Assembly: GCF_017876655.1 (NCBI RefSeq)
Contig: NZ_JAGIOK010000001.1
Location: forward strand, 1,178,001-1,242,000
Source: Microbacterium imperiale
GTDB lineage: Bacteria; Actinomycetota; Actinomycetes; Actinomycetales; Microbacteriaceae
Length of the DNA: 64,000 bases
Direction: 5' to 3'
Below are positions 6,102-51,717 of the stretch, piece after piece (positions within the stretch are counted from its first letter, which is position 1; each line of letters starts with the position of its first letter). The notes beneath the pieces were generated by a model, which was not told the DNA's origin, did not search any database, and saw only the letters and a list, made by a program, of their open reading frames with translations. A program made the translations under genes and the position numbers.

Positions 6102-6107
6102 TACGCT
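6102..6107 (+). promoter_or_regulatory. Possible -10 box of the hexosaminidase promoter
   Basis: TACGCT is followed 12 bases later by the 21-bp operator-like site at 6120-6140, so a repressor bound there would sit just downstream of the transcription start. The glyA promoter runs divergently in the same 200 bp. Confidence 0.4.
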
Positions 6108-6119
6108 GGCCCGAATCGG

Positions 6120-6140
6120 TTTGTTAGGCCTCCTTACAGA
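6120..6140. promoter_or_regulatory. Operator-like site A, shared with the ROK repressor gene
   Basis: TTTGTTAGGCCTCCTTACAG (first 20 of 21 bases) ends ten bases before the hexosaminidase start codon. It matches the two sites upstream of the ROK regulator (16491-16511 and 16539-16559): TTTG(T/C)TAG, five variable bases, (C/T)TTAC and an A-rich end. Shared position and sequence suggest one ROK repressor controls both loci. Confidence 0.7.
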
Positions 6141-6150
6141 TGGGTACGCC

Positions 6151-37845: not shown

Positions 37846-39537
37846 TCACGTCCGGTAAGGGTCAACGGGCAGCCACTCCAGCCAATCGGGCAGGTCCCAG
37901 AAGCCGCGCTCGCTGCCGTCGCCGTCCATCTCCGTCCCGGGCTCGCCGGTCAGGATGATCTGCTGGATGTTGTAGAACGACTCCGATCCTTCCACGAGGT
38001 ACCCCTCGCCGTCTCCGGACGGAAGCGGCCCGTTGCCGCCATCGTGTGACGCGTGACCGGGTGTCGGGGCGAGGTCGACGCCGTCGGCGCTTCCACCGTC
38101 GCTGCCGAACTCCGTCACCCCCGGAAGGGTCTCGGGAACGGTGCCGTGCGCGCCGCCCCAGCTCGTGTCGCGTCCGATGCGCGCCCACGCGTCGTTCTCC
38201 GACAACGTCGCGTAGGTGCGCAACCCCTCGGCGTTCTCGAGGTTCGACAGCACCTCGGGGTCGCTCGGGAACCCCGCCGACCCGACCGCGATGAACTGGT
38301 CGACCCCGAGCCCGTCGGGGCGCGACCCGATCGCCAGCGCCGCGGTCGTGCTGCCGTAGGAGTGCGCGATCACCGCCTTCTCGGACGCGGGGTGGACCGC
38401 GTCGAGACCGAGCAGGAAGGACCGCAGGGCCGGCGCGCCATCGTTCGCCCGCTGCATGGAGGGCTCCTCGGCCACGGTCGGCGAGTCGTACCCGAACCAC
38501 ACGACGCTCGCGATGCCCGGTCCGGCGGCATTGAGCGCCCGAGCGGAGTCGCCCCACTCGCCCATGCCCGTGACGTTGGAGAGCATCCCCGGCACGAGGA
38601 CGTTGATGTCGGTCGCGGTCGCCAGGTCGCCGTACGCGATAGCTGCCGTCACCTGTGCCGAGCCGTCGGGATCGAACGAGATCAAGCTGGCGTGCGATCC
38701 ACCCTGGGCGAGGGTGTTCCACAGCGCCTCGATCTGCTCGCCGAACTCTCCGGTCGGATGGGAGCTGTACAGCGCCTCGAGCCGGTGGCTGTTCACGTCA
38801 GCCCGCACGTCGTAGGGAATGCCGTCGAGATTGCCGATGATGTCGGGATGCGCGAGCTTGAGCTCCTTCTGCAGCTTCTCATGCGCGAGCCACAGCTCCA
38901 GCACCGCTTGCGGCGTATCCGCCGCGAGCAGCTGCTCGAGCAGACTCCTCGCCTCCGATGTCATCGCCGGCCCCGCACCGCCGGCGAGCTCGGCGAGCGC
39001 GGCGTCGTAGGCGGTGTCCCAAGCGGAGTAGTGGTTCTCGAACTGCTCCCACAGATCCGCGAGGTCGCCGGCGGCGGCATCCCGTGTCGCGACGGCATCC
39101 TGCGCCGCGTCGTTCGCGCGGCGGACGTCGGCGGGCTCACCCGAGCGGGACGTCGACAGCGCGCTCAGCGCCGCTTCCTCCGCCTCCGCGGCCGCTGAGC
39201 TCCACGCCGCGTGGGCGGACTCGATGTCGTCGATGAGCCGGTTCGCCGCCTCGGCGGACGACGAGAACGCGTCGGCGTACCGCTGCAGCACACCGGCGAG
39301 CAGCTCGGCCTCGGCGATCTCCGCCGCCAGCCCGTTGGCGACCTCTTGCGCGTCCGCGCGGGCCGCGGTTATGGAGGCGCCGACACCGTCGAGGTCGGTC
39401 GCGGACTGGACCGTGGTGCGAAGGTCGCCGAGCGAGCCGGCGACTCGGCTGAAAGCGCCGCTCCACCAGCTCATCGACCCGGCGCTGCCTTCGAGGCGCT
39501 CCAGCGGATAGCCCCGGTTGGGCGAGGTGAGGCTCAC
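37846..39537 (-). CDS. DUF1023-type alpha/beta hydrolase with an N-terminal helical (WXG-like) region
   Basis: 563 aa. The N-terminal 220 or so residues are helical and low in aromatic residues (VANGLAAEIAEAELLAGVLQ; AANRLIDDIESAHAAWSSAA), like WXG/LXG substrates of T7SS. The C-terminal half is an alpha/beta hydrolase of the DUF1023 kind, with the nucleophile elbow KAVIAHSYGSTTAALAIGSR and the late SHDGGNGP His. There is no signal peptide. The start is GTG 39537, overlapping the stop of the 97-aa Esx-sized protein. It may be an exported esterase/lipase effector guided by its small partner. This is an inference from architecture and gene order. Confidence 0.82.
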   Translation of the reverse strand: MSLTSPNRGYPLERLEGSAGSMSWWSGAFSRVAGSLGDLRTTVQSATDLDGVGASITAARADAQEVANGLAAEIAEAELLAGVLQRYADAFSSSAEAANRLIDDIESAHAAWSSAAAEAEEAALSALSTSRSGEPADVRRANDAAQDAVATRDAAAGDLADLWEQFENHYSAWDTAYDAALAELAGGAGPAMTSEARSLLEQLLAADTPQAVLELWLAHEKLQKELKLAHPDIIGNLDGIPYDVRADVNSHRLEALYSSHPTGEFGEQIEALWNTLAQGGSHASLISFDPDGSAQVTAAIAYGDLATATDINVLVPGMLSNVTGMGEWGDSARALNAAGPGIASVVWFGYDSPTVAEEPSMQRANDGAPALRSFLLGLDAVHPASEKAVIAHSYGSTTAALAIGSRPDGLGVDQFIAVGSAGFPSDPEVLSNLENAEGLRTYATLSENDAWARIGRDTSWGGAHGTVPETLPGVTEFGSDGGSADGVDLAPTPGHASHDGGNGPLPSGDGEGYLVEGSESFYNIQQIILTGEPGTEMDGDGSERGFWDLPDWLEWLPVDPYRT

Positions 39538-39827
39538 GGCTGGTTCCTGCCCGTCAGCTCGACATCGAGATCCGAGTAGCGGGCCGCGATCTCCGACAGG
39601 GATGCACCGACCCCGGATGCCGCGCCCGTGCGGTCCAGCACGGCCTGATGCAGGCCGGTCAACCGCCGGTTGATCTCGAGGCGCAGCACGACGCGATGCG
39701 CGGGGTTCTCGACACCGGTGTCGTCGCCCTGGATGTCGGCGTTGTCCATCACCGCGCTCGACACGCGCGTCTGGATGGCATCCGCCGCGCTCGTGAGCGC
39801 GTGGTAGTAGATCTCGACATCCGACAT
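39534..39827 (-). CDS. Small Esx-sized protein, first gene of the hydrolase operon
   Basis: 97 aa. MSDVEIYYHALTSAADAIQT and RRLTGLHQAVLDRTGAASGV suggest a mostly helical protein of WXG100 size without a WXG motif. GAGAGAGG lies before ATG 39827; the frame is open further upstream but lacks a better start. It is co-translated with the DUF1023 hydrolase (GTGA overlap). Its promoter carries the GGGGAG-TT-CTCCCC dyad shared with the two esx operons, which is the best evidence that it belongs to the T7SS. Confidence 0.78.
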   Translation of the reverse strand: MSDVEIYYHALTSAADAIQTRVSSAVMDNADIQGDDTGVENPAHRVVLRLEINRRLTGLHQAVLDRTGAASGVGASLSEIAARYSDLDVELTGRNQP

Positions 39828-39869: not shown

Positions 39870-39914
39870 ACGCTAATGAGGGGCTCGCCGCCGCGTCGAT
39901 GGGGAGAACTCCCC
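39870..39914 (-). promoter_or_regulatory. Shared T7SS promoter, copy 1 (dyad + -10)
   Basis: On the minus strand GGGGAGTTCTCCCCATCG (39914-39897) is followed by a -10 box TAGCGT (39875-39870). Twenty-five bases separate the dyad from the -10 box. The dyad is perfect (GGGGAG-TT-CTCCCC). The same arrangement precedes both esx genes at 45757-45801 and 51674-51717. Confidence 0.85.
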
Positions 39915-40109
39915 TCCCCGCCGCGCAAGCGCTGGCGTTCGCCGTCGGCACCGCGCTGATCGGCGTGCCGTCAACAGGCTGAAGCTGTACCGAGCGTCCC
40001 CGCAATGCCCGGATGTCGCCGCTCAGCCTGCTCACGGCACATCCGATCGCCGCGGCACGCACCGCCGCTGCCACCGCGCAAGCGCTGGCGTCCGCGGCCC
40101 TCGCCGGGT

Positions 40110-40115
40110 TAGCGT
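40110..40115 (+). promoter_or_regulatory. -10 box for a leaderless oxidoreductase transcript
   Basis: TAGCGT is followed by CGCGGC and ATG 40122, a six-base spacing and no Shine-Dalgarno. Confidence 0.5.
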
Positions 40116-40121
40116 CGCGGC

Positions 40122-41549
40122 ATGAGCGAACGCACCTACGACCTCGTCGTCATCGGAGCCGGTCCCGTCGGAGAGAATGTCGCCGACCGAGCTGCGCAGG
40201 GCGGCCTCAGCGTCGCGATCGTCGAGAGCGAACTGGTCGGCGGCGAGTGCTCGTATTGGGCGTGCATGCCGTCGAAAGGTCTGCTGCGGGCGGGCGCGGC
40301 GATCCGGGCGGCGAAGGCCGTCGACGGCGCGAAGCAGGCGGTCACCGGCGAGATCGACGTCGCGGGTGTGCTGCGTCGCCGCGACACGCTGACGTCGGAT
40401 TGGAATGACGCGTCGCAGGTCGAGTGGCTGCAGGGCGCCGGGGTCGACCTCGTGCGCGGACACGGGCGCCTCGCCGGCGAGAAGCGCGTCGAGGTCACCG
40501 GATCCGACGGCGCCGTCACCACGCTCATCGCGAACCACGCCGTCGCGGTGTGCACCGGCTCGGCCGCCCTGCTGCCCGGCGTCCCCGGCCTGGCGGAGGT
40601 GTCGCCCTGGACGAGTCGTGAGGCCACCGCCGTGCAGGAGGTCCCGGGCTCGCTCGCGATCGTTGGCGGCGGTGTCGTCGCGGCCGAGATGGCCACGGCC
40701 TTCGTCGATCTCGGCAGTGACGTGACGCTCATCGCGCGCAGCCGGCTTCTCGGACCGATGGAGCCTTTCGCCGGCGACCTCGTCGGCCAGTCGCTCACCG
40801 ACCGCGGAGCCCGGGTGCTGCTGCACACCGGCCTCGTCTCGGCCCGACGGGTCGACGACGGACAGGTCGAGCTCGAGCTCTCGAACGGCACGCACGTCCG
40901 AGCCGACGAGGTTCTCGTCGCGACAGGCCGTGTGCCCCGCACGGACGATCTCGGACTGGATGCCGTCGGCCTCGAGCCCGGCTCGTGGTTGGACGTCGAC
41001 GACACCATGCTCGTGCGGGGGTCGGACTGGCTGTACGCGGTCGGCGATGTCAACCACCGTGCGCTCCTCACCCACCAGGGCAAGTACCAGGCGCGGGCTG
41101 CGGGCGACGTGATCGTCGCGCGCGCAACCGGTGGCACCGTCGACGACGCGCCGTGGGGCGCGCACGTCGCGACTGCCGACCACGCTGCCGTTCCGCAGGT
41201 GACCTTCACCGATCCCGAGGTCGCCTCGATCGGCGAGACCGAGGCGTCGGCACGCGCCGCGGGGCGCCGCATCCGGGTCCTCGACTACGACCTCTCGGCG
41301 ATCGCGGGAGCGTCCACGCGTTCGGACGCGTACACCGGTCAGGCGCGCGCGATCGTCGACGAGGATCGCGGCGTCCTCATCGGCGCGACGTTCGTCGGAG
41401 CGGATGTCGGCGAGCTCCTGCACTCCGCCACGATCGCGGTCGTCGGCGAGGTTCCGCTCGCGCGGCTCTGGCACGCGGTGCCGTCCTACCCGACGCTCAG
41501 CGAGGTCTGGCTGCGCTTCCTCGAGACATACGGCCGCCCGACCGCCTGA
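40122..41549 (+). CDS. Pyridine nucleotide-disulfide oxidoreductase (dihydrolipoamide/mercuric-reductase-like)
   Basis: 475 aa. FAD-binding VVIGAGPVGENVADRAAQGG is followed by the redox motif GGECSYWACMPSKGLLRAG. The cysteine pair is CxxxxC, with GGEC and WAC replacing the usual GGTCxNxGC. The NAD(P) motif is SLAIVGGGVVAAEMATAFVD, and LYAVGDVNHRALLTHQGKYQ is the second FAD motif. The C-terminal dimer domain has VTFTDPEVASIGETEASARA but not the HAHPTLSE His-Glu pair: it reads HAVPSYPTLSEVWLRF. The substrate is unknown. It is monocistronic, opposite to the T7SS operons on both sides. Confidence 0.88.
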   Translation: MSERTYDLVVIGAGPVGENVADRAAQGGLSVAIVESELVGGECSYWACMPSKGLLRAGAAIRAAKAVDGAKQAVTGEIDVAGVLRRRDTLTSDWNDASQVEWLQGAGVDLVRGHGRLAGEKRVEVTGSDGAVTTLIANHAVAVCTGSAALLPGVPGLAEVSPWTSREATAVQEVPGSLAIVGGGVVAAEMATAFVDLGSDVTLIARSRLLGPMEPFAGDLVGQSLTDRGARVLLHTGLVSARRVDDGQVELELSNGTHVRADEVLVATGRVPRTDDLGLDAVGLEPGSWLDVDDTMLVRGSDWLYAVGDVNHRALLTHQGKYQARAAGDVIVARATGGTVDDAPWGAHVATADHAAVPQVTFTDPEVASIGETEASARAAGRRIRVLDYDLSAIAGASTRSDAYTGQARAIVDEDRGVLIGATFVGADVGELLHSATIAVVGEVPLARLWHAVPSYPTLSEVWLRFLETYGRPTA

Positions 41550-41597
41550 CCCGGAGATCGCCTCGCCCGCTGCGACGTCCGGAACGGACCAGCGCGA

Positions 41598-42272
41598 TCA
41601 CCCGGCCGGCGCCTCCCAGCGCAGGCTCGAGACCGACAGGTCGAACAGCGTCTTCATCAGCACCATGGCCTCGTCGTCATCGGCCGCGCCGGTCGGCCGT
41701 GCGATCGTCACCGTCAGCTGCAGAGCCTGCCGCCGGCGCGATCCCGGAATCGGAGTCAGGTACCCGACCTCGGTGGCGAGGTACTCCTGACCGTCGAGGG
41801 TGCGACGCGTCTCGCGCTCGAAGCGCAGGAAGCGCCTGTCGCCGAGAAGCGGCGTCGCGCCGCCGTCGCGGATGAGGGTCCCGACCAGCGGGTCGAGGTT
41901 CTCCCCGGTGGCGGTGCGCGTCGAGGCGACCATCGACGCGGGAAGGGCCAAGGCGTCGTCGTCGCCGGTGGCCGGCGTGAACATCGCGATGACGTCCGCC
42001 GCGGCCATGGCGGTGAACGCCTCGTCGAGCAGCGGCCGCAGGCGCGCGTACAGGTCGGGGCGATGGGCCTGCAACAGACGACCCCGTACCGACGCCTGCA
42101 GGTCGTCCCGCGAGGCCTCGTCGACCGCGCGCCTCACCCAGCCCGGAGGCAGCGCGAGCACGAAGTCGGGCTTCTCCGGCAGGCCCATCGCGGCGCGAAG
42201 CGATACGCGCGCACGAGCGGTCAGTGCGGGCGACGTGTCGGGCGCGGTGACGGCATCCGTCGTATCGGTCAC
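41598..42272 (-). CDS. T7SS-cassette protein, family shared with 49022-49675
   Basis: 224 aa, soluble. It has ALPPGWVRRAVDEASRDDLQ, a variable middle, GYLTPIPGSRRRQALQLTVT and TLFDLSVSSLRW. Its relative at 49022-49675 has LLPPGWEAHDL, YLIPIPGSRRTAAVQWTVTV and ALFDGHIATFTW, so the two cassettes each carry one. No known domain is recognised; chaperone, immunity or adaptor roles are all possible. The GTG start has GAGAGGA upstream, 13 bases after the membrane protein stop. Last gene of cassette A. Confidence 0.8.
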   Translation of the reverse strand: MTDTTDAVTAPDTSPALTARARVSLRAAMGLPEKPDFVLALPPGWVRRAVDEASRDDLQASVRGRLLQAHRPDLYARLRPLLDEAFTAMAAADVIAMFTPATGDDDALALPASMVASTRTATGENLDPLVGTLIRDGGATPLLGDRRFLRFERETRRTLDGQEYLATEVGYLTPIPGSRRRQALQLTVTIARPTGAADDDEAMVLMKTLFDLSVSSLRWEAPAG

Positions 42273-42285
42273 GATCGTCCTCTCG

Positions 42286-43095
42286 TCACCGGCGCCGCTC
42301 GGCGTCGATGAGATACAGGGTTCCGGGGTCGCGCGACAGCGCCCGCTCGAGGGTGTCGGCGTCGATCAGGCCGCGCTGGTGCAGCACCGCGAGCGCGGCC
42401 TGACGGTCGTCGATGATGGCCTGGCGCTCGTCCCAGGGCAGCGCTGCGATGCGGGCGCGGATGTCGCCGGCGCCGAGACCCGACTCGGGCGCGGCTTCAC
42501 CGTCACCCTCGGCAACCCGAACGCGGAAGCGCGCGAGCATGATGAAGGCTGCGACCACCGCGACGCCGAGCGCGACGAACACGGGGCCTTGCCACTGCTG
42601 CCAGCTCTCGTATCCATCGAGCTCGGCAATGCCCGGCATCGTCCCCAGGGCGAGCACGGCCATGGTCGCCGCCACGAGGTGGACGGAGAACTCCGGCCAG
42701 GAGAATCTGGCTCCCCGCGCGAGCCAGATGACCAGCAGCACGGCCTGCGCCACGGCCGCGATGATGAACATCACGCCCGCGATCGGCATCGCCCGTTGCG
42801 CTTCGATGCGGAAGAACTCGAAGCGATCGCCCATGAGCACGGCGAGTCCTGTGATCGGCGCGATGAACGCGCCGAGGATGATGGCCCACAGGACGACGGC
42901 GAGGATGCCGCGCAGCGGCGACTTCTTCCCGCTGGCGCGCAAGCGATGCGCGATCGCGGCACCGTCGCCGCCGAAGTGCTGGAAGATCTCGGGATGCCGC
43001 TGATAAGCCATCACCTCGAGCTGCGCGAGACGCACCTCGGACGACAACGAATGGTCCTCCGCCCAGGCCCGGGCAGACGGGTGAAGGAAGCTCAT
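42286..43095 (-). CDS. T7SS-cassette membrane protein with C-terminal cytosolic tail
   Basis: 269 aa. Four or more membrane segments lie at about residues 65-185 (GILAVVLWAIILGAFIAPIT; GVMFIIAAVAQAVLLVIWLA; VFVALGVAVVAAFIMLARF). The hydrophilic C-terminal tail has DERQAIIDDRQAALAVLHQR then GLIDADTLERAL, resembling the REELVARGxI(S/T)xxE tails of the proteins at 46796 and 47638. ATGA overlap with the upstream 43092-43721 gene start region and gene order put it in cassette A. No enzymatic motif seen. Confidence 0.8.
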   Translation of the reverse strand: MSFLHPSARAWAEDHSLSSEVRLAQLEVMAYQRHPEIFQHFGGDGAAIAHRLRASGKKSPLRGILAVVLWAIILGAFIAPITGLAVLMGDRFEFFRIEAQRAMPIAGVMFIIAAVAQAVLLVIWLARGARFSWPEFSVHLVAATMAVLALGTMPGIAELDGYESWQQWQGPVFVALGVAVVAAFIMLARFRVRVAEGDGEAAPESGLGAGDIRARIAALPWDERQAIIDDRQAALAVLHQRGLIDADTLERALSRDPGTLYLIDAERRR

Positions 43096-43721
43096 GATGT
43101 CGGCACGGTATCAGGCCACGGTTCCTGCGCCGCGAACCCGCGGGGAAGCGACGCGACGCGCTGGCCGCCGTCCGGCCCGATGAGCGTCAGCGTCTGCACG
43201 AACGCGTGGAATGAGCCGACGACGAGCGCGAAGAGCTCGGGAATGGTCGGCTGCAGGCTTGCGTGGACGAGCACATCACCGGCGACGAACAGGACGTCGA
43301 TCCCGACGAGATCGACCTCGCCCGCGTCGACCGAGCTGGTCCGCTGGATGCCGGTGCCGAGCCTGTCGGCGTCGTAAGGCACACCCGCCCCGGGGTCGAC
43401 GGCGAAGCCCTCGGGCGCCGTGCCGAACGCGACGAAGGCGTGGGCGACGATCGGTGCGGGCACCGGCCAGAGCTGGAACGCGAGGGCCGCGTCATCGGGC
43501 CGCGCGGCGAGTCCCGAACGCAGGAGATCCGCGACAGGGCCTGCGTGGGAGTCATCATCCCACCGCTGGCCCCACCCTTCACGGACGAGGTCAGCCTGCT
43601 CGGCGACCCAGGCATCGACGTCGGCGACCTCCGCGGGAAGCTGAAGCCAGCCGCCGCCCTCCGCGGCCGCGTCCAGACGCCACCCGCCGGCGCCCCACCC
43701 CTCGGGCATCGTCGCGGTCAT
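43092..43721 (-). CDS. T7SS-cassette soluble protein, possibly related to 48426-49025
   Basis: 209 aa. It is rich in Trp/Asp at the N-terminus (MPEGWGAGGWRLDAAAEGGG) and beta-strand-like later (DLVGIDVLFVAGDVLVHASL). LGTGIQRTSS and the FVAGD...LQPTIPELF stretch resemble LGTGFSVTML and FFGED...LGPVVPYGM in the 199-aa protein of cassette B, suggesting distant homology. ATG 43721 overlaps the substrate gene stop (ATGA). A dedicated partner or immunity protein for the gene before it is possible; nothing proves it. Confidence 0.78.
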   Translation of the reverse strand: MTATMPEGWGAGGWRLDAAAEGGGWLQLPAEVADVDAWVAEQADLVREGWGQRWDDDSHAGPVADLLRSGLAARPDDAALAFQLWPVPAPIVAHAFVAFGTAPEGFAVDPGAGVPYDADRLGTGIQRTSSVDAGEVDLVGIDVLFVAGDVLVHASLQPTIPELFALVVGSFHAFVQTLTLIGPDGGQRVASLPRGFAAQEPWPDTVPTS

Positions 43722-44971
43722 AGGACAGCTCCTACCCATGGGAGGAGCGAACTCGGCTTGCGGTCGGCGTTGCCGGTCCACAGCGCGATCTTGTCAATCG
43801 CGCTCCAGCTGCCCGAGACCATCGTGTAGGCACCCTGCCACGCAGCAGAGATGACCGTCGAGTTGCACCATCCGCGAGCCGAACCCGCGACCGATTCAGC
43901 GAGTCCCGTGACGCCGGTCGAGTTCGGTCCGAACATGAACCGGCACATGATGTCGCCGACGCCGGCGGGATTGTTCATCTGCCACAGACCCCGCGAGACG
44001 TTGACGAAGCTGTTCGGGGCGCTCGTGCTGAACGCCGCGATGGTCCGCAGCGAATTGACTTGTCCCGCGGCCGCGGACCAGCTGGAGGGCCGGAACGCCG
44101 TGAACATGTCGCCCGCGAAATCGACGAGCCCGGGCTTTCCCTGGAACAGTTTGCCGACCTTGCCGAACGGGATGAGGCTGATGATCGCGATGACGAGCTT
44201 CTCGGGGCCGGCATCGCCGCGGAGCACCTGGTAGGCCGTCAACAGCAGCGTGATCACCCCGATGACCGAGCCGATGAGGGCGAAGATCGGACCGCCGATG
44301 ATGATGCCCAGAATCGCCACGGCGATGCCGATGTACCCCAGCACTTCGAGGACGACGGCGAGGACCCCGTCGGTGTCGTCCCAGAAGCTGTCGCGGATGG
44401 AGCCGTCGAGCACGTCTCCGATGGAGGATGCCGCGCGGTCGAACGCCTCGTCCCACGTGTCGTAGTGACGGTCGAAGACCGCGGCCTCATCGCGGAACTC
44501 GTCGTAGAGCTCGTGCTTGCGCGCATCGTCCTCGGCCTGGTCGGCGAGCTGCCGCGCCGCGGCCGACCCGGGCTCCGGCTCGACGAGGGGCGCGGGACGG
44601 TCGTCGCGGGTTCCGGGCGCTCCGGCGTAGGCGTTCCACGCCGCTTCGGCAGCCGACACCGCGGCGCTGATGAGGGGCTGCACCGATGACACGGCCTGCC
44701 CGTACTCGACGAGGATCGGCCCCGTCGGCTGGTACAGCTCACCCGCTCGACGCAGTTCTGCGTGGGTGTCGCCGACGATCTCGCGGACCTTCTCGATGGC
44801 CTTTCCCTGTTGCCCGTCGCCACCCTCGACGAGCGACCGCAGCACTTCCGCGCTCTCGTCCATTTGACGCCCGATGGACTCGATACGCCGGCCTCGGGCG
44901 GTGATCGTGCCGGCGTCGCCCTCGAGAGTCTCGATCGCGCGCCCTCTCGGCGAAGATTCCATTCCACTCAT
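43718..44971 (-). CDS. Putative T7SS-secreted substrate with hydrophobic hairpin (cassette A)
   Basis: 417 aa. The helical N-terminal half (about 1-185) resembles the T7SS signal region of LXG/WXG-like substrates (RGRRIESIGRQMDESAEVLR; ELYQPTGPILVEYGQAVSSV). It is followed by two to three long hydrophobic segments at about 200-260 (VLGYIGIAVAILGIIIGGPI; FALIGSVIGVITLLLTAYQV) and a C-terminal 150 residues with NSLRTIAAFSTSAPNSFVNV. The paralogue at 49672-50946 shares the first two parts but has a different tail. This is the pattern of a polymorphic effector with an exchangeable tip; pore formation is a guess. ATG 44971, 17 bases after the W-x-R protein stop. Confidence 0.82.
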   Translation of the reverse strand: MSGMESSPRGRAIETLEGDAGTITARGRRIESIGRQMDESAEVLRSLVEGGDGQQGKAIEKVREIVGDTHAELRRAGELYQPTGPILVEYGQAVSSVQPLISAAVSAAEAAWNAYAGAPGTRDDRPAPLVEPEPGSAAARQLADQAEDDARKHELYDEFRDEAAVFDRHYDTWDEAFDRAASSIGDVLDGSIRDSFWDDTDGVLAVVLEVLGYIGIAVAILGIIIGGPIFALIGSVIGVITLLLTAYQVLRGDAGPEKLVIAIISLIPFGKVGKLFQGKPGLVDFAGDMFTAFRPSSWSAAAGQVNSLRTIAAFSTSAPNSFVNVSRGLWQMNNPAGVGDIMCRFMFGPNSTGVTGLAESVAGSARGWCNSTVISAAWQGAYTMVSGSWSAIDKIALWTGNADRKPSSLLPWVGAVL

Positions 44972-44987
44972 GCCCGTCCCCCTCGGT

Positions 44988-45329
44988 TCACCGCGCTGGC
45001 GACGGGCGCGACGCGGAGCTCAGCCCGGACGCGTCGATGTCCATCTGCGCGGCCGTTTCGTCATCCCAGTCGCGGAACCCGTCGAGGACGCCCACGACGT
45101 GCTCGCGGATCTTGGTGATGTCGCGCGCCAGATCACCGCGACGGTTGTCCCACCCGGATTCGAACGAGTCGACGCGGTCGCGCAGCGCACCTCGGCCGTA
45201 TGGCCGTCCGATCGCGCCCAGCAGATCGCCACTCAGACTCGCCGCGTCTTCGAGCTCGCTCAGAATGCGCTCGAGCTGCCCGCTCGTGCGCTCCAACGAC
45301 GAGTAGTTGACCCACACCACATCAGCCAC
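44988..45329 (-). CDS. WXG100-sized protein, W-x-x-R-R type (cassette A)
   Basis: 113 aa, predicted helical hairpin. Key features are VVWVNYSSLERTSGQLERIL, SPYG-like GRPYGRGALRDRVDSFESGW and WDNRRGDLARDI. The paralogue at 50952-51254 has SPYGESALRDAASEFERRWD followed by DRRKQL. The conserved YG(x)ALRD...FE..WD.RR occupies the place where WXG would stand. It may be the second Esx partner, or a chaperone binding the following substrate. It begins 86 bases after the esx stop; a strong hairpin (45360-45393) stands in between. Confidence 0.82.
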   Translation of the reverse strand: MADVVWVNYSSLERTSGQLERILSELEDAASLSGDLLGAIGRPYGRGALRDRVDSFESGWDNRRGDLARDITKIREHVVGVLDGFRDWDDETAAQMDIDASGLSSASRPSPAR

Positions 45330-45359
45330 GACATCTCCTCCCCTGCGCTCCTACCGACC

Positions 45360-45393
45360 CGCGGGCCGGGAGCGTCATGGCTCCCGGCCCGCG
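45360..45393. terminator. Hairpin between esx and the second gene (cassette A)
   Basis: Perfect 14-bp arms CGCGGGCCGGGAGC (45360-45373) and GCTCCCGGCCCGCG (45380-45393) enclose GTCATG. Likely a partial terminator or mRNA-stabilising stem that raises esx over the rest of the operon. Cassette B has an unrelated stem in the same place. Confidence 0.7.
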
Positions 45394-45409
45394 GAAAGCG
45401 ATACTCGCC

Positions 45410-45756
45410 TCGGCGTCAGCTGCCGGCGAGCTGCTGGTCGAGGTCCTGGATCGCGCGCATCATGCCCAGCAGCGACTCGGACATGTCGTTGATGCCATCG
45501 ACCGCGTTCTTCAGACCCGTCGTCAGCTCGGAGTACCCCTCACCGAACTTGCCCGACGCGTGCTGCGTCTTGAAGTCCTCACCCAGCAACGTGTCGACCT
45601 GCGACTTCAGGGTGTCCAGCTGCCCCTGAATGTCATCACGCGCCTGCGACAGCGAGCTCGCAACCTGCTCCATCTCGCCATAAGACGCACCGAAATCAGC
45701 CATGACGGCCCTCCCAAGAATTCGCTTCCCGACCCCCCTCCGGAGCCGACACTGAA
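45410..45756. repeat. 347-bp direct repeat carrying esx, copy A
   Basis: This stretch matches 51326-51672 at every position I compared except one (C at 45503, A at 51419, a synonymous change). The repeat covers the whole esx gene and 53 bases of leader, and ends just before the -10 box. Beyond both ends the sequences diverge abruptly. This indicates recent duplication or ongoing gene conversion. Confidence 0.9.
45416..45703 (-). CDS. Esx/WXG100-like secreted protein, copy A (identical to copy B)
   Basis: 95 aa. MADFGASYGEMEQVASSLSQ, then ARDDIQGQLDTLKSQVDTLL and GEDFKTQHASGKFGEGYSEL. The size, helix-loop-helix pattern and position match WXG100 proteins, but the central WXG is replaced by DFKT. 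The C-terminal QDLDQQL has no clear YxxxD/E export signal. GGGAGG lies six bases upstream of ATG 45703. The protein is identical to the product of 51332-51619. It is the first gene of cassette A, behind the shared dyad promoter, and is the probable main exported Esx protein of this T7SS. Confidence 0.88.
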   Translation of the reverse strand: MADFGASYGEMEQVASSLSQARDDIQGQLDTLKSQVDTLLGEDFKTQHASGKFGEGYSELTTGLKNAVDGINDMSESLLGMMRAIQDLDQQLAGS

Positions 45757-45801
45757 AAGCTATCGGCCCCCATCACCCGAGGTCGATGGGGAGAACTCCC
45801 C
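45757..45801 (-). promoter_or_regulatory. Shared T7SS promoter, copy 2 (dyad + -10)
   Basis: On the minus strand GGGGAGTTCTCCCCATCG (45801-45784) is followed 25 bases later by TAGCTT (45762-45757). The start codon of esx copy A is 54 bases further on. The dyad and ATCG are identical to copies 1 and 3. Confidence 0.85.
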
Positions 45802-45909
45802 ACTTCACAACCAGCCCGGACCGACGTCGACGAGCTCAGCGCGGGTCGAGACCTTCGTGTGCTTCGGGGTAGTACGACGAACGTGCTTCTCCGGCGACCG
45901 TCAACGACA

Positions 45910-46011
45910 TCATCCCGAGGACCGCAATTCCAAGCGCCACCAGAGCACCGCGTCCCACGTGGTCGCTTCATCGATCAGAGGTTCGAGAGGACGTGCCGAC
46001 ATACCGCTCAT
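45910..46011 (-). pseudogene. Truncated N-terminal remnant of the 46796/47638 membrane-protein family
   Basis: A 33-codon frame begins at ATG 46011 after a near-perfect AGGAGG site and ends at TGA. The peptide MSARPLEPLIDEATTWDAVL followed by WWRLELR matches the N-termini of the 47638 protein (ALLDESGDWDAVKWWRLEQR) and the 46796 protein (GLLDEPGDWDGVKRWRLELR). The rest of the family, including all membrane segments, is absent. The 407 bases between 45704 and 46110 otherwise hold only the esx promoter and no other recognisable gene. It looks like a decayed third copy that kept its ribosome-binding site; a functional micropeptide cannot be excluded. Confidence 0.65.
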
Positions 46012-46110
46012 CTTTCCTCCTGGCGGGCGGTCGACGAATGTCGCGATAGGACGGCGGTACCGCCGAGCAGAATCACGACGGCAAGCGTACGCAGTAGACG
46101 GACAGCTGCG

Positions 46111-46785
46111 TCAGCGAGCGCGTACCGAGCGCGTCAGCCTCGACCACAGCGGATCCCCCGCGCTCAGGCCATTGACGATGCGCAGGACGCCGCCGATCTG
46201 ACCGATGCCGCTGAGGGCGCCGTAAACGCCGACGAGCAAAGACGGCGCCGTGAAGATGCTGACGCCGGCACTGAGATCGCGCCCGAACACAGCAAGGCCG
46301 CCCACGGCGAACAGCAGCGCGAGGGATGCCGTCATCAGGCGGACGAGAATGCGAGGTTCGAGGTTGACGGTGCGCGCCTGTACCCAGCCGGCGGCACGCG
46401 GAGTGCGCTGGCCGTTCGCGTAGGGCGCGCGGAGCCAGAACGAGGCGGCGCGCGTGAGCGCGCGACCGGTCCGCCACAGGGCGACGAGCAACGTCGAACC
46501 CGCCAGTGCGATCACGATGGCGATCAGAATCGCAATCACATCGACAGCGCCTACCCGTCCGGCGGCGGCCATCGCCGCGACCATTCCCGCGGCGACGAAG
46601 CCTCCCCCCGCGGCAGCGACGAAACCGACGACACCGAGCGCCCAGCGCGACCACCGCTCGTAGTCGGCGCGCAACGCGGCGGCGGCACGATCGGCCTCAG
46701 CGGGCGGAACGGATGCCGCTGGCTCCCCCGCCTCACCTGCGGTGAGAAGCGGGCGGGACGCGGCCCGAACGAAAGCGAACGCCAT
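46111..46785 (-). CDS. T7SS-cassette membrane protein of unknown family
   Basis: 224 aa. There are four or five hydrophobic segments: WALGVVGFVAAAGGGFVAAG, VIAILIAIVIALAGSTLLVA and LMTASLALLFAVGGLAVFGR, then SIFTAPSLLVGVYGALSGIG. No known motif is recognised. The start MAFAFVRAASRPLLTAGEAG (ATG 46785) lies 10 bases after the previous stop but has no good Shine-Dalgarno; GTG 46851 in frame, overlapping the previous gene, is an alternative. It is the last intact gene of cassette B. Confidence 0.68.
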   Translation of the reverse strand: MAFAFVRAASRPLLTAGEAGEPAASVPPAEADRAAAALRADYERWSRWALGVVGFVAAAGGGFVAAGMVAAMAAAGRVGAVDVIAILIAIVIALAGSTLLVALWRTGRALTRAASFWLRAPYANGQRTPRAAGWVQARTVNLEPRILVRLMTASLALLFAVGGLAVFGRDLSAGVSIFTAPSLLVGVYGALSGIGQIGGVLRIVNGLSAGDPLWSRLTRSVRAR

Positions 46786-46795
46786 GGACAGGATG

Positions 46796-47620
46796 CTACG
46801 AGCCCGACGCGTCACGCTCGCCCTGACCGGCGCGAGACACGGCGTGCGCACCGAACGGCGACATTACCTGCGGCGCCACCGTGCGCCCGAGATGCCCCAA
46901 CGGGGCCGCGAGCGCCATCTCGCCGAGCTCGGGCGTGATGCGACCCCGAGCGACGAGCTCGCGAATCGCGGCATCCCGCTCCTCCAGCGCCGTCCCGCGG
47001 GCCTCGGGGCGCATCTCGCTGACCGCCTGGTCGACATTCTGGAGGTCGTCCTGCGGCCCGCTCTTCTGCACCGAGAAACGGATTACCGTCCACATCGCGA
47101 GGGCGACATTTGCGGCGACTGCCCACAGCCACACCTCGCTCCCATCCCAGAACGGCCGCGCAGCAGTCAGACCGATAGCCAGCACCAGCAAGCCCGGGAT
47201 CATGTTCCACAGCGCGAGCGTCCACGTGATGGTCGCACCGGCGTACCGCGGAGTCCTGAGTTCCTGCACCTCGCCGTGTGCGTTCACCAGCAGCGCGAAC
47301 GCTGTCAATGGGCCGGCGTACATCAACGGCATGTCCCAGCGGCTAGCGCCCTGGATCACCAGCCATTGCACCATCATCGCCGCCGACAGCGCCGGCAGAG
47401 CCAGCGCGAGCATGAAGGCGAGGCTCTGCAAGCAGCTACCTGCCGCGAACCTGGGCACCTCTGCTCGCCAAGCCTCGCGCGGACCCAATAGCGCTACCTT
47501 CGCCTGAGCGGGCGCGGCGTCGACCAACGTGCGCAGCTCCAGACGCCACCGCTTCACGCCGTCCCAGTCGCCCGGCTCGTCGAGCAGGCCTCGTACGGTC
47601 CGATCACCCACGTCGACCAT
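46796..47620 (-). CDS. T7SS-cassette membrane protein, tandem paralogue of 47638-48429
   Basis: 274 aa. The N-terminal motif GLLDEPGDWDGVKRWRLELR is followed by about four membrane segments (SLAFMLALALPALSAAMMVQ; WNMIPGLLVLAIGLTAARPF; VWLWAVAANVALAMWTVIRF). The hydrophilic tail has NVDQAVSEMRPEARGTALEE and RDAAIRELVARGRITPELGE. It aligns along its length with the next gene (SLAILLSIALPTLAAGMMIQ; AERDGAIRELVARGSISADE). Function unknown; the tail is a probable cytosolic docking or regulatory part. ATG 47620. Confidence 0.8.
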   Translation of the reverse strand: MVDVGDRTVRGLLDEPGDWDGVKRWRLELRTLVDAAPAQAKVALLGPREAWRAEVPRFAAGSCLQSLAFMLALALPALSAAMMVQWLVIQGASRWDMPLMYAGPLTAFALLVNAHGEVQELRTPRYAGATITWTLALWNMIPGLLVLAIGLTAARPFWDGSEVWLWAVAANVALAMWTVIRFSVQKSGPQDDLQNVDQAVSEMRPEARGTALEERDAAIRELVARGRITPELGEMALAAPLGHLGRTVAPQVMSPFGAHAVSRAGQGERDASGS

Positions 47621-47637
47621 TCTGGCGGTCGGCGGCC

Positions 47638-48429
47638 TCAGCTGAGGTGGCCGACGCCCGCGAGCGCGGCCTTCGCCCGAGGCGACATGGCCTCCGGCGC
47701 CATCGTCATCCCGAGCTTTCCGAGCGGAGCCGCCGAGGCGCGCTCCGCTTCATCAGCAGAGATCGAACCGCGCGCGACCAGCTCCCGGATCGCCCCATCC
47801 CGCTCTGCACGCGCTTCCTCGCGGCGACTCTCGGGGACTTCCGTCAGGGCCTGATCCACGTTCTCGACCTCGTTGCGGGGGCCACCACGCGGAATGGGAC
47901 CGCGCGCGAGCAGGAACACATGCAGGGCGATGTGCGCCGCGGCCACGGCCAGCCAGTATCCCGCGCCCTCCAGGTAGGGGGCGGCAGCCGTGAGACCGAT
48001 GATGAGGACGATCGCGGCGGGGACGATGTTGACAATGGCGATGACGATGAGCGAACCCCAGGCGCTCGCGCGGCGGCGCCGCAGAGACTCGATCGCACCG
48101 AAGAGACTGACGACGAAGGCGAAGGCGAGGAGCGGGCCCGCGTAGCCGAGCGGCATGTCCCAGGGACTCTGCCCCCGGGTGGCCCACTGGATCATCATCC
48201 CGGCGGCGAGTGTCGGCAGCGCGATGCTGAGGAGGATGGCGAGGCTCTTCAGGAAGCTGCCGAGAGTGACCCGCGTCTCCGTGCGCCGTGCCTCCTGCGG
48301 CCCCAGGGTCGCGATCGAGGCCTGCACGAAGGGCTCCCGGGCGAACGCCCTCTGTTCGAGCCTCCACCACTTCACCGCGTCCCAGTCGCCGGACTCATCC
48401 AGCAGCGCGCGCACCGTCCGATCGCTCAT
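47638..48429 (-). CDS. T7SS-cassette membrane protein, tandem paralogue of 46796-47620
   Basis: 263 aa. MSDRTVRALLDESGDWDAVK then WWRLEQRAFA opens the protein; four membrane segments follow (KSLAILLSIALPTLAAGMMI; VNIVPAAIVLIIGLTAAAPY; WLAVAAAHIALHVFLLARG). The charged tail is NVDQALTEVPESRREEARAE then RDGAIRELVARGSISADEAE. ATG 48429 is chosen because it overlaps the preceding stop as ATGA; ATG 48438 in frame would extend it by three residues. The first 30 residues are the piece preserved in the remnant at 45910-46011. Confidence 0.82.
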   Translation of the reverse strand: MSDRTVRALLDESGDWDAVKWWRLEQRAFAREPFVQASIATLGPQEARRTETRVTLGSFLKSLAILLSIALPTLAAGMMIQWATRGQSPWDMPLGYAGPLLAFAFVVSLFGAIESLRRRRASAWGSLIVIAIVNIVPAAIVLIIGLTAAAPYLEGAGYWLAVAAAHIALHVFLLARGPIPRGGPRNEVENVDQALTEVPESRREEARAERDGAIRELVARGSISADEAERASAAPLGKLGMTMAPEAMSPRAKAALAGVGHLS

Positions 48430-49025
48430 GCGACCCATCCTTCCCCGAAGCGGGCCGCCGCAGCATCGAGCTGGTCGACGTAGTCACGGGCGTCCGCAGC
48501 TATGAAGCCGTCGACGCGGGCGCTTTCGAGCATCGCTTCGACGGGGATCTGAGCGAAGGCCATGCCGTAGGGAACGACGGGGCCGAGGGAGACGATGACC
48601 GTCCGGTCCTCACCGAAGAACAGCCAGCGACGTGTGGCGAGATCCCGCTGCTGACGACGCTCGAGCATCGTCACCGAGAAACCGGTTCCCAGATACGACG
48701 TTTCGACGACGTAGGGCGTCGGCGGAAGGAGGAGCGCGTCCGACCACAGGAGACCCGCGTGCTCCGCCTGCGAGAGGCGCGTTTCCGCGACGGCAAGCAC
48801 CAGCGGCGCGATCACCGCACCATCTGCGGCCACGATGACGAAGACTTCACGATCATCACCCGCGACGGTCCGCGCGTCGCGGATGGCGGCGGAGATCCTG
48901 TCGACGTGCTGCACTTCGAGCCCGGCGCGCGCGACGAAATCGCGCGCGATCGCCTCCGCCGGGGCGTCGTCCGCACCGCTCACGGGGATGCAACGGTCGG
49001 CGTCGTAGGTCAGGTGAAGCATCAT
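48426..49025 (-). CDS. T7SS-cassette soluble protein (cassette B)
   Basis: 199 aa. Beta-rich sequence with EVFVIVAADGAVIAPLVLAV, PTPYVVETSYLGTGFSVTML and WLFFGEDRTVIVSLGPVVPY. It may be distantly related to the 209-aa protein of cassette A. The double ATG at 49025/49022 overlaps the preceding stop (ATGA), so translation is coupled to the 49022-49675 gene. No catalytic motif or signal peptide. Role unknown; partner or immunity protein are both possible. Confidence 0.78.
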   Translation of the reverse strand: MMLHLTYDADRCIPVSGADDAPAEAIARDFVARAGLEVQHVDRISAAIRDARTVAGDDREVFVIVAADGAVIAPLVLAVAETRLSQAEHAGLLWSDALLLPPTPYVVETSYLGTGFSVTMLERRQQRDLATRRWLFFGEDRTVIVSLGPVVPYGMAFAQIPVEAMLESARVDGFIAADARDYVDQLDAAAARFGEGWVA

Positions 49026-49675
49026 GCGGGGTTGCTCCAGGTGAAGGTGGCGATGTGCCCGTCGAAGAGCGCGATCCAGGACTGGATCAGGGGGCTGTCG
49101 GCCGCCACATCGGCACCGTGGGCCACCGTGACCGTCCACTGAACGGCCGCGGTGCGGCGGGAGCCGGGAATCGGGATGAGGTAGTGGACGAGGGTTGATA
49201 CCGCTTCCACCTCGTCGAGGACGACGGGGCGCCGTTCCGTCCAGCGAACGATCCGATAGTCCTCGCCGATCGCGACGCCCCCGCGACGTTCGATTGCCTC
49301 GCGCACGACCGCATCCAGGGGCACCTCGGGCGAGGCGACCCGCTTCATGCCCACGAGGCTCGCGGCTCCCAAGACCCACGTGGGCGCGCCTTCCCGGGCA
49401 AGAGCGTAGACGAAGGCGCGCTGTCCCCGCAGCGCGGTCATCGCCTCTGCGACGTGTCGCCGGAGGGCGGAGGCGAGGTCGGGCCGTTGCGCCGACGCCA
49501 ACCGCGCCGTCGCCTGAGCGAGCACGGAGGATTCGCCCGCAGCAGTGAGGTCGTGAGCCTCCCAGCCGGGAGGAAGAAGCATCCGGTAAGCCGGGATGTT
49601 CTCCGTCGCTCGGGAACGGAGTTCGGTTCGCAGGTCCGCCACGCGATCAGTCTGCCAGTCGACCGGGGCGCTCAT
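49022..49675 (-). CDS. T7SS-cassette protein, family shared with 41598-42272
   Basis: 217 aa. AYRMLLPPGWEAHDLTAAGE, LASAQRPDLASALRRHVAEA and HYLIPIPGSRRTAAVQWTVT are the family landmarks; the cassette A relative has ALPPGWVRRAV, LLQAHRPDLYARLRPLLDEA and GYLTPIPGSRRRQALQLTVT. The shared PPGW...RPDL...PIPGSRR pattern defines an unnamed family. ATG 49675 overlaps the stop of the substrate gene. Presence of one copy per cassette directly linked to a substrate suggests a substrate-specific helper. Confidence 0.8.
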   Translation of the reverse strand: MSAPVDWQTDRVADLRTELRSRATENIPAYRMLLPPGWEAHDLTAAGESSVLAQATARLASAQRPDLASALRRHVAEAMTALRGQRAFVYALAREGAPTWVLGAASLVGMKRVASPEVPLDAVVREAIERRGGVAIGEDYRIVRWTERRPVVLDEVEAVSTLVHYLIPIPGSRRTAAVQWTVTVAHGADVAADSPLIQSWIALFDGHIATFTWSNPA

Positions 49676-50946
49676 GCGACCGGCGCCGAGGAGGCGCCGG
49701 CCGGGCCGGGCGCCATGATCGCGTCGGACGAGTAATCGCTGAAGTCGAACGGATTCTGCTGCGGGTTGAACGCCCCCTGGAACGATCCCGTCGCGGTGTC
49801 GCGGATCATGCCCGTGATGCCCAGCTGCTGGGTCCACACCGACGAGACGGTGTCGAAGGCACCACGACCGGTGGCAGGTACCTGCGCCCAGTCGTCGAGG
49901 CCCTTACCGCTGAAGAGCTTGGAAGAGATGTCCGCGAAGGCGTCGGTGAACGACGACGTCCGGAACCCGGCGAGGTCGCGCATAACGGTCGACGCCGAGC
50001 GTCCGCCGCCGAACAGCCGGCCGAAGTCGTCTCCGAAGGAGCTGCCCACCTGAGCCCAGGAGCCGGGCCCGAAGCCCTTGATGAACTTCGCGGCTGGACC
50101 GACGAGCGGGATGACGCCGATGATGGCGAAGGTCAGCTCGAGCCCGTCGCCGTCGCCGACGCCGAACTTGGCGATCGCGACGACGAGGCTGAGCACGGCG
50201 ACGATCGCCGCGAGTGCGCCGATGATCGGTCCGCCGATGACGATGGCGAGGACGGCGAGGATGATGCCCGCGACCGCGAGGACGTTTCCGACGAACTCCA
50301 GAAGACCGCGGAGGTCGTCCATCGTGGAGTCCTCGATGGCGTCGCTCGTGTCCTCCTCGATGTTGCGCGAGGCGGTCGTGAACGCCGTGTGCCAGGTGTC
50401 CCACTGCTCGTCGTACTGCGCGGCCGTGGCGTTCCACTGGTCGAGCGAATCGCTCGCGGCGTTCGCGGCGTCGCGGGCGTCGCCCTCGGCGCGCTCGAAC
50501 GCGGAAACCTCCGACGGCTCGGCGTCGTCGCCCGGCTCGCGGGGAACCGCCGACGATGCCGCGGCTGCCTGCTGACTGCGCTGGTAGTACTCCGTCCACA
50601 GGCGGTCGAGCTCGGCCACGAGCGGTCGCATGGCGCTCTGGGCCGCGTCGAGGGCTTCACCGTAGGTGCGGATGTGCGGGCCGACCGCGCTGTAGAGCTC
50701 CGCGGCCTCACCGAGGTCGCTGCCCACCTTCTCCGCGAGCTCTCGCAGCTTGTCGATCGACTGGCCCTCCATCGACGCGCCGTCGTCGACGAGCCGCTGG
50801 ATCAGAGACCACGAGTTCGCCATGTCCGAACCGAGATCCGTGATCTGCTGACCGCGGGTGCGCACCTCGTCGGGCTCACCCTCGACGACCTCGATGGGGT
50901 GGTTACCGGGCGAATACGGCATGTGCGGGCCGACATTCATGCTCAT
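49672..50946 (-). CDS. Putative T7SS-secreted substrate with hydrophobic hairpin (cassette B)
   Basis: 424 aa. The N-terminal helical region has DEVRTRGQQITDLGSDMANS, SIDKLRELAEKVGSDLGEAA and ELYSAVGPHIRTYGEALDAA, matching the cassette A protein in order. The hydrophobic part is VLAVAGIILAVLAIVIGGPI then IGALAAIVAVLSLVVAIAKF. The C-terminal 130 residues (FGRLFGGGRSASTVMRDLAG; DDWAQVPATGRGAFDTVSSV) differ from cassette A. An effector with a variable tail is the simplest reading; no nuclease, NADase or lipase motif is visible. ATG 50946 is five bases from the preceding stop. Confidence 0.82.
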   Translation of the reverse strand: MSMNVGPHMPYSPGNHPIEVVEGEPDEVRTRGQQITDLGSDMANSWSLIQRLVDDGASMEGQSIDKLRELAEKVGSDLGEAAELYSAVGPHIRTYGEALDAAQSAMRPLVAELDRLWTEYYQRSQQAAAASSAVPREPGDDAEPSEVSAFERAEGDARDAANAASDSLDQWNATAAQYDEQWDTWHTAFTTASRNIEEDTSDAIEDSTMDDLRGLLEFVGNVLAVAGIILAVLAIVIGGPIIGALAAIVAVLSLVVAIAKFGVGDGDGLELTFAIIGVIPLVGPAAKFIKGFGPGSWAQVGSSFGDDFGRLFGGGRSASTVMRDLAGFRTSSFTDAFADISSKLFSGKGLDDWAQVPATGRGAFDTVSSVWTQQLGITGMIRDTATGSFQGAFNPQQNPFDFSDYSSDAIMAPGPAGASSAPVA

Positions 50947-50951
50947 CGTCT

Positions 50952-51254
50952 TCAGTCCTCGCTCTCGAACTTCGTCGCCATGTCGGCATCGAAGTCCTGG
51001 AAACCGGTGATGACCGTCTCCAGGTGGTCTGCGACCGCCTGGCAGTTCTCGGTCAGCTGCTTGCGCCGGTCGTCCCAGCGCCGCTCGAACTCGCTCGCGG
51101 CATCGCGCAGCGCGGATTCTCCGTACGGACTCCCCACCGCGTGCTCGAGATCACGACGCCGCGCGCCCGCGGACTCGAATTCGCTGATGATGTTGTTCAG
51201 CTCGGTCCGCAGCGGCTCCAGCTCGCTGTAGTTGACCTTGACCCCGTTACCCAT
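50952..51254 (-). CDS. WXG100-sized protein, W-x-x-R-R type (cassette B)
   Basis: 100 aa. VKVNYSELEPLRTELNNIIS, GSPYGESALRDAASEFERRW and WDDRRKQLTENC give the same landmarks as the cassette A protein (VNYSSLE; GRPYGRGALRD; WDNRRGDL). A helical hairpin is expected. ATG 51254 lies 77 bases after the esx stop, beyond a strong hairpin. Probably a heterodimer partner of Esx or the chaperone of the following substrate. Confidence 0.82.
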   Translation of the reverse strand: MGNGVKVNYSELEPLRTELNNIISEFESAGARRRDLEHAVGSPYGESALRDAASEFERRWDDRRKQLTENCQAVADHLETVITGFQDFDADMATKFESED

Positions 51255-51289
51255 GATTCCCCTCCCCCGGATTCGACCTGATCATGATC

Positions 51290-51322
51290 GAGGCGTGGCG
51301 GATGCCGTATCCGCCACGCCTC
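51290..51322. terminator. Hairpin between esx and the second gene (cassette B)
   Basis: Perfect 14-bp arms GAGGCGTGGCGGAT (51290-51303) and ATCCGCCACGCCTC (51309-51322) enclose GCCGT. It has the same position but a different sequence from the cassette A stem, so the structure rather than the sequence is kept. Confidence 0.7.
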
Positions 51323-51325
51323 GCG

Positions 51326-51672
51326 TCGGCGTCAGCTGCCGGCGAGCTGCTGGTCGAGGTCCTGGATCGCGCGCATCATGCCCAGCAGCGACTCGGACAT
51401 GTCGTTGATGCCATCGACAGCGTTCTTCAGACCCGTCGTCAGCTCGGAGTACCCCTCACCGAACTTGCCCGACGCGTGCTGCGTCTTGAAGTCCTCACCC
51501 AGCAACGTGTCGACCTGCGACTTCAGGGTGTCCAGCTGCCCCTGAATGTCATCACGCGCCTGCGACAGCGAGCTCGCAACCTGCTCCATCTCGCCATAAG
51601 ACGCACCGAAATCAGCCATGACGGCCCTCCCAAGAATTCGCTTCCCGACCCCCCTCCGGAGCCGACACTGAA
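51326..51672. repeat. 347-bp direct repeat carrying esx, copy B
   Basis: Second copy of the repeat at 45410-45756, with one difference seen (A at 51419). It spans the esx gene and leader and stops just before the -10 box; flanking operons have diverged strongly. The copies are 5916 bp apart in the same orientation, so recombination between them would delete cassette B down to a single esx. Confidence 0.9.
51332..51619 (-). CDS. Esx/WXG100-like secreted protein, copy B (identical to copy A)
   Basis: 95 aa, identical in protein sequence to the product of 45416-45703. The central WXG is replaced by DFKT, as in copy A. It is the first gene of cassette B, with the same ribosome-binding site and leader, behind copy 3 of the dyad promoter. 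Its stop is followed by a strong hairpin before the second gene. Identity of two copies among otherwise diverged operons suggests dosage or selection for one common partner of both substrates. Confidence 0.88.
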   Translation of the reverse strand: MADFGASYGEMEQVASSLSQARDDIQGQLDTLKSQVDTLLGEDFKTQHASGKFGEGYSELTTGLKNAVDGINDMSESLLGMMRAIQDLDQQLAGS

Positions 51673-51673
51673 G

Positions 51674-51717
51674 AACTTACTGAACCCTGAGGTCTAGGGC
51701 GATGGGGAGAACTCCCC
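51674..51717 (-). promoter_or_regulatory. Shared T7SS promoter, copy 3 (dyad + -10)
   Basis: On the minus strand GGGGAGTTCTCCCCATCG (51717-51700) is followed 24 bases later by TAAGTT (51679-51674). The dyad plus ATCG is identical to copies 1 and 2, while the bases between dyad and -10 box are not conserved. Confidence 0.85.

Follow-up and report, generated by a model that had tools for sequence, protein, structure and literature searches.

A conserved inverted-repeat promoter element of type VII secretion genes in Microbacterium imperiale and its relatives, with an FHA protein as candidate regulator

Phosphorylated DegU reportedly activates the ESX locus of Bacillus subtilis, which offers an example, from another phylum, of a type VII secretion system (T7SS) activated by a phosphorylated regulator. 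DevR sites have the geometry GGG-N8-CCC, and EmbR of Mycobacterium tuberculosis carries an FHA part (residues 290-382) that lies behind its DNA-binding part. As for the secretion systems themselves, Garrett et al. (2024, PMC11217815) describe T7SSd of Actinomycetota as combining an FHA-bearing EccC/EssC-type ATPase with a kinase; neither “promoter” nor “Microbacteri” occurs in the main text of that paper. Here we analysed a stretch of 64,000 nucleotides of Microbacterium imperiale (NZ_JAGIOK010000001.1, positions 1,178,001 to 1,242,000; the window), in which three T7SS operons are preceded by the same type of inverted repeat, followed 24 or 25 bases later by a -10-like hexamer. The clusters to which such operons belong share the ATPase and the kinase with T7SSd and add, as judged by eye, a core protein of about 2000 residues together with MoxR, DUF58-like and transglutaminase-like genes. 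Our literature search turned up neither an operator nor a regulator described for this element, in line with the initial annotation of the window; a candidate, combining FHA with a helix-turn-helix (HTH)-like domain, can now be named, although it is unproven.

We found that GGGGAGTTCTCCCCATCG has three exact matches in the window, all on the minus strand, at 39897-39914 (site 1), 45784-45801 (site 2) and 51700-51717 (site 3), precisely where the initial annotation had placed them. With up to three mismatches allowed, the window holds four matches (the fourth is site 3 seen on the opposite strand), against 0.16 expected, and none of 100 shuffles reaches four. As 18-mers, the sites read GAGGGGAGTTCTCCCCAT, GTGGGGAGTTCTCCCCAT and ATGGGGAGTTCTCCCCAT, and agree with the motif defined below at 11, 12 and 13 of its 13 positions, respectively. 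The -10-like sequences TAGCGT (39870-39875), TAGCTT (45757-45762) and TAAGTT (51674-51679) stand 25, 25 and 24 bases past the end of CCCC, as had been claimed (21, 21 and 20 when counted from ATCG), and the ATG codons downstream lie at 39827, 45703 and 51619. The operons had been called WXG-like: the first genes behind sites 2 and 3 are of the WXG100 family, and that behind site 1 is WXG-like by size and place alone.

As stated in the initial annotation, the bases between dyad and -10 sequence are not the same: the linkers of copies 2 and 3 have different sequences, and one is a base longer than the other. The leader and the WXG gene that follow in these copies are duplicated (287 of 288 coding bases are identical), so that the region from just below the -10 sequence onward is not independent between the two. 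Linkers that differ next to a duplicated leader and gene are what one would expect if selection acts on the dyad and on its distance from the hexamer.

Comparison within the genus led to a redefinition of the element as ATGGGNA-NNNN-TCCCCAT, followed by TANNNT; its essential part is an 18-bp inverted repeat, ATGGGNANNNNTCCCCAT, with AT in both arms, and not the core plus ATCG of the initial annotation. The upstream regions compared were picked solely by protein homology to the WXG gene, which matched in 30 of 59 genomes and yielded 30 loci, one of them without upstream DNA. At a threshold of at least 11 of the 13 positions, ATGGGNANNNNTCCCCAT precedes 25 of the 29 usable WXG loci (0.05 expected from dinucleotide shuffles; L026, L034, L039 and L040 lack it), and in 24 of these 25 sites TANNNT starts exactly 24 or 25 bases past CCCC, the exception being L024, where the repeat is present and TANNNT is not at either distance. 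The initial annotation had proposed a search of related genomes for the motif plus TANNNT; the element does stand before T7SS genes more often than chance predicts. Every one of the 24 complete sites has GGG, A, T and CCCC, and the AT that flanks both arms is kept in 79-96%. In the centre, the most frequent base at each of the four positions is kept in 42, 88, 42 and 62%; for the central TT, this means 88% for the first T and 42% for the second. The linkers of the 25-base class (eleven distinct sequences) have a mutual identity of just 36%. The exact 18-mer was found in 4 of the 59 genomes, M. imperiale included, at six sites that all lie upstream of T7SS-type genes (the one at L010 was called LXG-like by eye). 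The repeat also stands upstream of the gene for the core protein of about 2000 residues in 21 of 30 cases, against 0.08 expected.

In the whole genome of M. imperiale the 14-bp core occurs, as an exact match, five times. Three copies are those of the window and four belong to T7SS genes, the fourth being situated about 115 bp upstream of a 2022-residue T7SS core gene near C1:2105199. The fifth copy (C1:1513293-1513306, L004) has no AT flanks, and no adjoining T7SS gene was seen there. Separately, a variant of the element with TAGCGT was observed before a lipoprotein gene at C1:2387495-2387540 (L446), whose surroundings were part of the DNA screened for the candidate regulator described below.

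The element is distributed far more widely than a single species. With a looser pattern, 68 of the 119 genomes of the genus had 142 sites between them (21 with a reversed control). A strict pattern was present in 82 of 396 genomes of the order, representing 28 of 109 genera (reversed control 0); of 296 genomes sampled from the phylum, 288 lay outside the order, and all of these lacked it. The named contigs with a match (at least 120 stretches) come from Microbacterium, Arthrobacter, Brachybacterium, Agreia, Leifsonia, Herbiconiux, Terracoccus, Intrasporangium, Agrococcus, Cellulosimicrobium and others. Among the matches listed there were also single loci from Gordonia (two species), Williamsia and Aeromicrobium, as well as eight non-actinobacterial loci, which look like chance matches, as expected. 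Microbacterium thalli NE2TL11 carries the 46-base promoter of site 3 letter for letter. The idea of one promoter design for T7SS genes is thereby supported, with conservation in many genera, and the three sites of the window are almost certainly operators of a T7SS regulon conserved across many genera of one actinobacterial order.

The genes behind the element agree with this assignment. They were picked by a simple rule based on start codons and ribosome-binding sites, and some are certainly mis-called. From 131 site rows (seven without a gene, four dropped, one duplicate) we obtained 119 first genes, whose first 130 residues were scanned against Pfam. The WXG-type families form the largest class (WXG100 in 33, WXG100_2 in 10), followed by EspC (8), DUF6507 (3), GerE (3), LXG (1) and a T7SS signal domain (1); many of the remaining genes have LXG-like, core-gene or lipoprotein openings, as judged by eye. 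In group f12/g17, which has up to nine sites per genome, the element also precedes lipoproteins, small membrane proteins and secreted proteins, and there the regulon may reach beyond the T7SS. Thiolase-like, secreted peptidase-like and lipoprotein genes (by eye) were observed behind the element at L219, L222 and L228 of this group. At L231 (G246, 3812-7662) there are small proteins near LXG-like genes, several of them with the element, which are possible dedicated partners.

The architecture of these promoters suggests how the repeat may act. With TANNNT placed at -12 to -7 of the predicted start, the centre of the dyad falls at -44.5 or -43.5. The statement that no normal -35 box fits proved broadly right: at a spacing of 16-18 bp the best match to TTGACA reaches four of six bases in 12 of the 24 genus sites, three in 8 and two in 4, and the right arm of the repeat overlaps with this weak -35-like sequence, examples of which are TCGACC and TCGACG. 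In one genome (G204) a single dyad is flanked on both sides by a correctly spaced TANNNT and, beyond it, a WXG-like gene, an arrangement that agrees with a symmetrical operator. We infer, as the simplest reading, a dimeric activator that touches the polymerase.

According to the scheme we propose, such a dimer would bind the 18-bp inverted repeat, centred about 44 bp upstream of the transcription start, and would help ordinary RNA polymerase to use the TANNNT -10 sequence without a good -35 (class-II-like activation). The activator would most likely be a T7SS core-cluster protein of about 240 residues, in which an N-terminal FHA domain is joined to a conserved HTH-like domain at the C-terminus. 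Its FHA domain would read a phospho-threonine that the neighbouring kinase sets and the cluster's PP2C phosphatase takes off again, and kinase signalling would in this way switch on the machine, the WXG partners, the substrates and the lipoproteins together. What the sequences show is the element with its spacing, conservation and gene set; the binding of DNA, activation as opposed to repression, and phospho-control are the predicted parts. We assign the full chain (operator, FHA-HTH activator and phospho-control) a probability of about 0.55.

The FHA-HTH protein became a candidate because of loci in Gordonia and Williamsia, in which a PP2C gene and an FHA gene lie directly upstream of the element, followed by a small LuxR gene. 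(This mini-locus was observed at L410 and L412 in Gordonia and at L327 in Williamsia, with no T7SS core genes seen in 8 kb.) Identity is 55% between this FHA protein and the one encoded in a Microbacterium T7SS cluster, and 44% between the PP2C and its counterpart in the T7SS cluster of G158. Inspection by eye of the gene lists of T7SS stretches from eleven genomes, made with a simple gene caller, had revealed no regulator inside the T7SS cluster. The C-terminal half of the FHA protein contains RLGW....FNRKLDNVC.K and RR..LVE, with FNRKLDNVC invariant in 30 sequences. At E 1e-10 there are 4281 homologues, and the names among the matches listed are hypothetical or FHA domain-containing protein. 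In another protein search Microbacterium thalli is not named among the matches listed (at least 120), which decides nothing. An AlphaFold model (mean predicted local distance difference test, pLDDT, 80) shows an FHA sandwich at residues 1-101 and helices at 129-144, 156-163, 167-183, 197-210 and 216-223 in an HTH-like order; the C-terminal part modelled alone gave a pLDDT of 76.5. The VIA-align listing, in which no HTH protein stood out, covered residues 1-105 only and is silent on the C-terminal part. When its profile was compared with that of the LuxR family from Gordonia, the C-terminal ends came into register, if weakly (E 0.006 in a single comparison, probability 6%). EmbR and the candidate both carry FHA, but the latter has it first, and its C-terminal part is another, unnamed domain; the likeness does not establish membership of the same family.

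The protein and the element tend to occur together. Within the core-gene stretches of 52 genomes, a site (at least 12 of 13 positions; reversed control 0 throughout) was found in 31 of 38 genomes with the protein and in 2 of 14 without it (Fisher p 1.6e-5). Omission of G363 and G257 changes p to 9e-5; absence in these two means little, because their stretches held no kinase, EccC or MoxR marker.

It should be borne in mind that a number of results weigh against the proposed scheme. The 52 genomes are related and were chosen partly for presence or absence of the element, their stretches differ in length, and “absent” means absent from the stretch. When the strict whole-genome pattern is counted, G328 and G363 gain a site, which gives 4 of 14 genomes without the protein (p 6e-4). 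Seven of the 38 genomes with the protein have no site in the fetched stretches, and G341 and M. imperiale have a site without the protein. The approximately 402 kb of M. imperiale that were examined (12.7% of the genome, including its three T7SS loci and the second contig) contain no FHA-HTH protein, and the core cluster ends after the kinase, flanked by genes like those of G328. The C-terminal half has no convincing Pfam family (the sole HTH-type match concerned 1 of 30 members, at E 0.14), and it resembles the GerE-type HTH weakly (25% over 55 columns, at a probability of 6%). Finally, 9 of the 21 core-gene sites, and the M. imperiale core-gene site (not one of the 21), have no TANNNT at 24 or 25 bases. 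Only 12 of the 21 keep this spacing, and the promoter of the core gene must have a different build in several families. The FHA-HTH protein is the best candidate for the reader of the repeat, though an unproven one. The more specific proposal, that in Micrococcales-type actinobacteria the T7SS cluster encodes a phospho-reading transcription factor of its own, composed of FHA and a new C-terminal HTH domain that would bind ATGGGNANNNNTCCCCAT, is made tentatively, at somewhat less than even odds.

Alternatively, the same operator might be read by a NarL/FixJ or LuxR-type (GerE) regulator encoded elsewhere, e.g. a two-component response regulator, which we consider unlikely. All 24 genus sites are GGG-N8-CCC inverted repeats, a geometry shared with the operator of the NarL-type regulator OsdR as far as its consensus, AGGGCCGATCGGCCCT, is set out in PMC5069765, but the inner bases of the DevR/OsdR sites differ from those of the present repeat, their targets are dormancy genes, and no ortholog is linked to our sites. 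Genomic context speaks in part for such a regulator, as in G441 and G258 (one genus) the element lies between the core gene and a response regulator gene placed back to back, and small LuxR genes account for 3 of the 119 first genes, in Gordonia and Williamsia. On the other hand, a relative of that response regulator (query from M. imperiale, E 1e-18) is present in 10 of 25 element-bearing and in 6 of 19 other genomes, and the recognition helices of the candidate regulators differ, as judged by eye. A GerE survey of nine genomes, with sets for four element-bearing ones, was likewise set aside: the best-hit comparison gave generic response regulators only and no clear common ortholog beyond them (one G477 member was omitted, and at the threshold of E 1e-3 divergent members may escape).

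Two candidates of this kind were rejected. The response regulator encoded next to the core gene (P0001, L138) was attractive for the element that lies between them, but at E 1e-15 it has relatives in all but three of the 119 genomes of the genus (116), including many without a looser-pattern site, and at E 1e-18 in just the 10 of 25 element-bearing genomes already mentioned. An autoregulated regulator was looked for by eye behind the 17 sites of two f12/g17 genomes and behind other inspected sites, and none follows them; the three LuxR genes of Gordonia and Williamsia are possible candidates for autoregulation. In three genomes from two families, response regulators were also observed beside T7SS clusters or not far from them (L270:13159-15011, L185 and L260:3809-6828), accompanied by a sensor kinase at L270 and at L260; a response regulator flanks the cluster in G441 and is about 7 kb away in G380.

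The remaining alternatives concern the way in which the repeat acts. Symmetrical operators near -44 can serve repression too, but the poor -35 and the strict spacing of 24-25 bp favour an activator that touches the polymerase, and we regard a repressor operator as improbable. The initial annotation had left the choice between a dedicated activator and an alternative sigma factor; the -35 of the latter would lie in the TCCCCATCG region. A dedicated activator fits best; the sigma factor would agree with the slightly better conservation of the right arm (CCCC invariant, fourth G of the left arm 71%), but it is very improbable in view of the mirrored left arm, the two-sided dyad of G204, which faces TANNNT and a WXG-like gene in both directions, the weak -35 and the retention of a sigma70-like TANNNT. 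A CRP/FNR-type activator is barely credible, having in its favour the geometry alone (TGGGG-N6-CCCCA resembles CRP spacing), and a survey of 13 genomes does not discriminate: PF00325 (E 1e-3; PF13545 was not searched) has no match in M. imperiale and matches in 12 of the 13, element-bearing or not.

The three operators of the window, which we read as sites of a dimeric activator, precede the following genes, all on the minus strand. Site 1 is followed by the gene for the WXG-like protein of 97 residues (39534-39827, no Pfam match), an alpha/beta hydrolase of 563 residues (37846-39537; PF06259, E 7.6e-18; its N-terminal stretch is helical-looking by eye) and two putative lipoproteins with a lipobox recognized by eye, of 233 (37141-37842) and 241 residues (36409-37134). 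Behind site 2 there are a WXG100 protein of 95 residues (45416-45703; PF06013, E 3e-10), a second small protein of 113 residues (44988-45329) and an LXG-like putative substrate of 417 residues with a hydrophobic centre by eye (43718-44971); the last two have no Pfam match. The order is repeated behind site 3, with the duplicate WXG100 protein of 95 residues (51332-51619), a small protein of 100 residues (50952-51254, no Pfam match) and a putative substrate of 424 residues (49672-50946), LXG-like by eye and without a Pfam match. Judging from the sequence, the near-identical WXG100 genes, each with its own element and different downstream genes, are a duplication of an export module. Beyond site 3 lie the FHA-bearing EccC/EssC-type ATPase of 1525 residues with FtsK/SpoIIIE domains (52583-57160) and an RDD membrane protein of 481 residues with a C-terminal FHA domain (57191-58636), both also on the minus strand; the kinase, recognized by its sequence, is encoded elsewhere in the genome (L463:13553-15223). 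Outside the window, a second EccC-like gene (1459 residues, L105:4905-9284, within C1:984000-1002000) was observed with its own WXG gene (9392-9688), and no FHA-HTH protein was found near it in L105.

To conclude, as far as our literature search goes, the timing of T7SS use in non-mycobacterial actinobacteria is largely unknown. A fixed operator provides a homology-free signature of T7SS substrates, partners and accessory genes, even when they lie far from the cluster. With a candidate regulator, a kinase and a phosphatase encoded together in one cluster, the control circuit can be tested directly in soil bacteria. If the proposed scheme is true, the kinase, phosphatase and FHA proteins, which have so far been proposed to control assembly or activity, would set the transcription of a whole regulon, substrates included, and, considering the number of homologues of the FHA-HTH protein, such a switch would be present in very many species.

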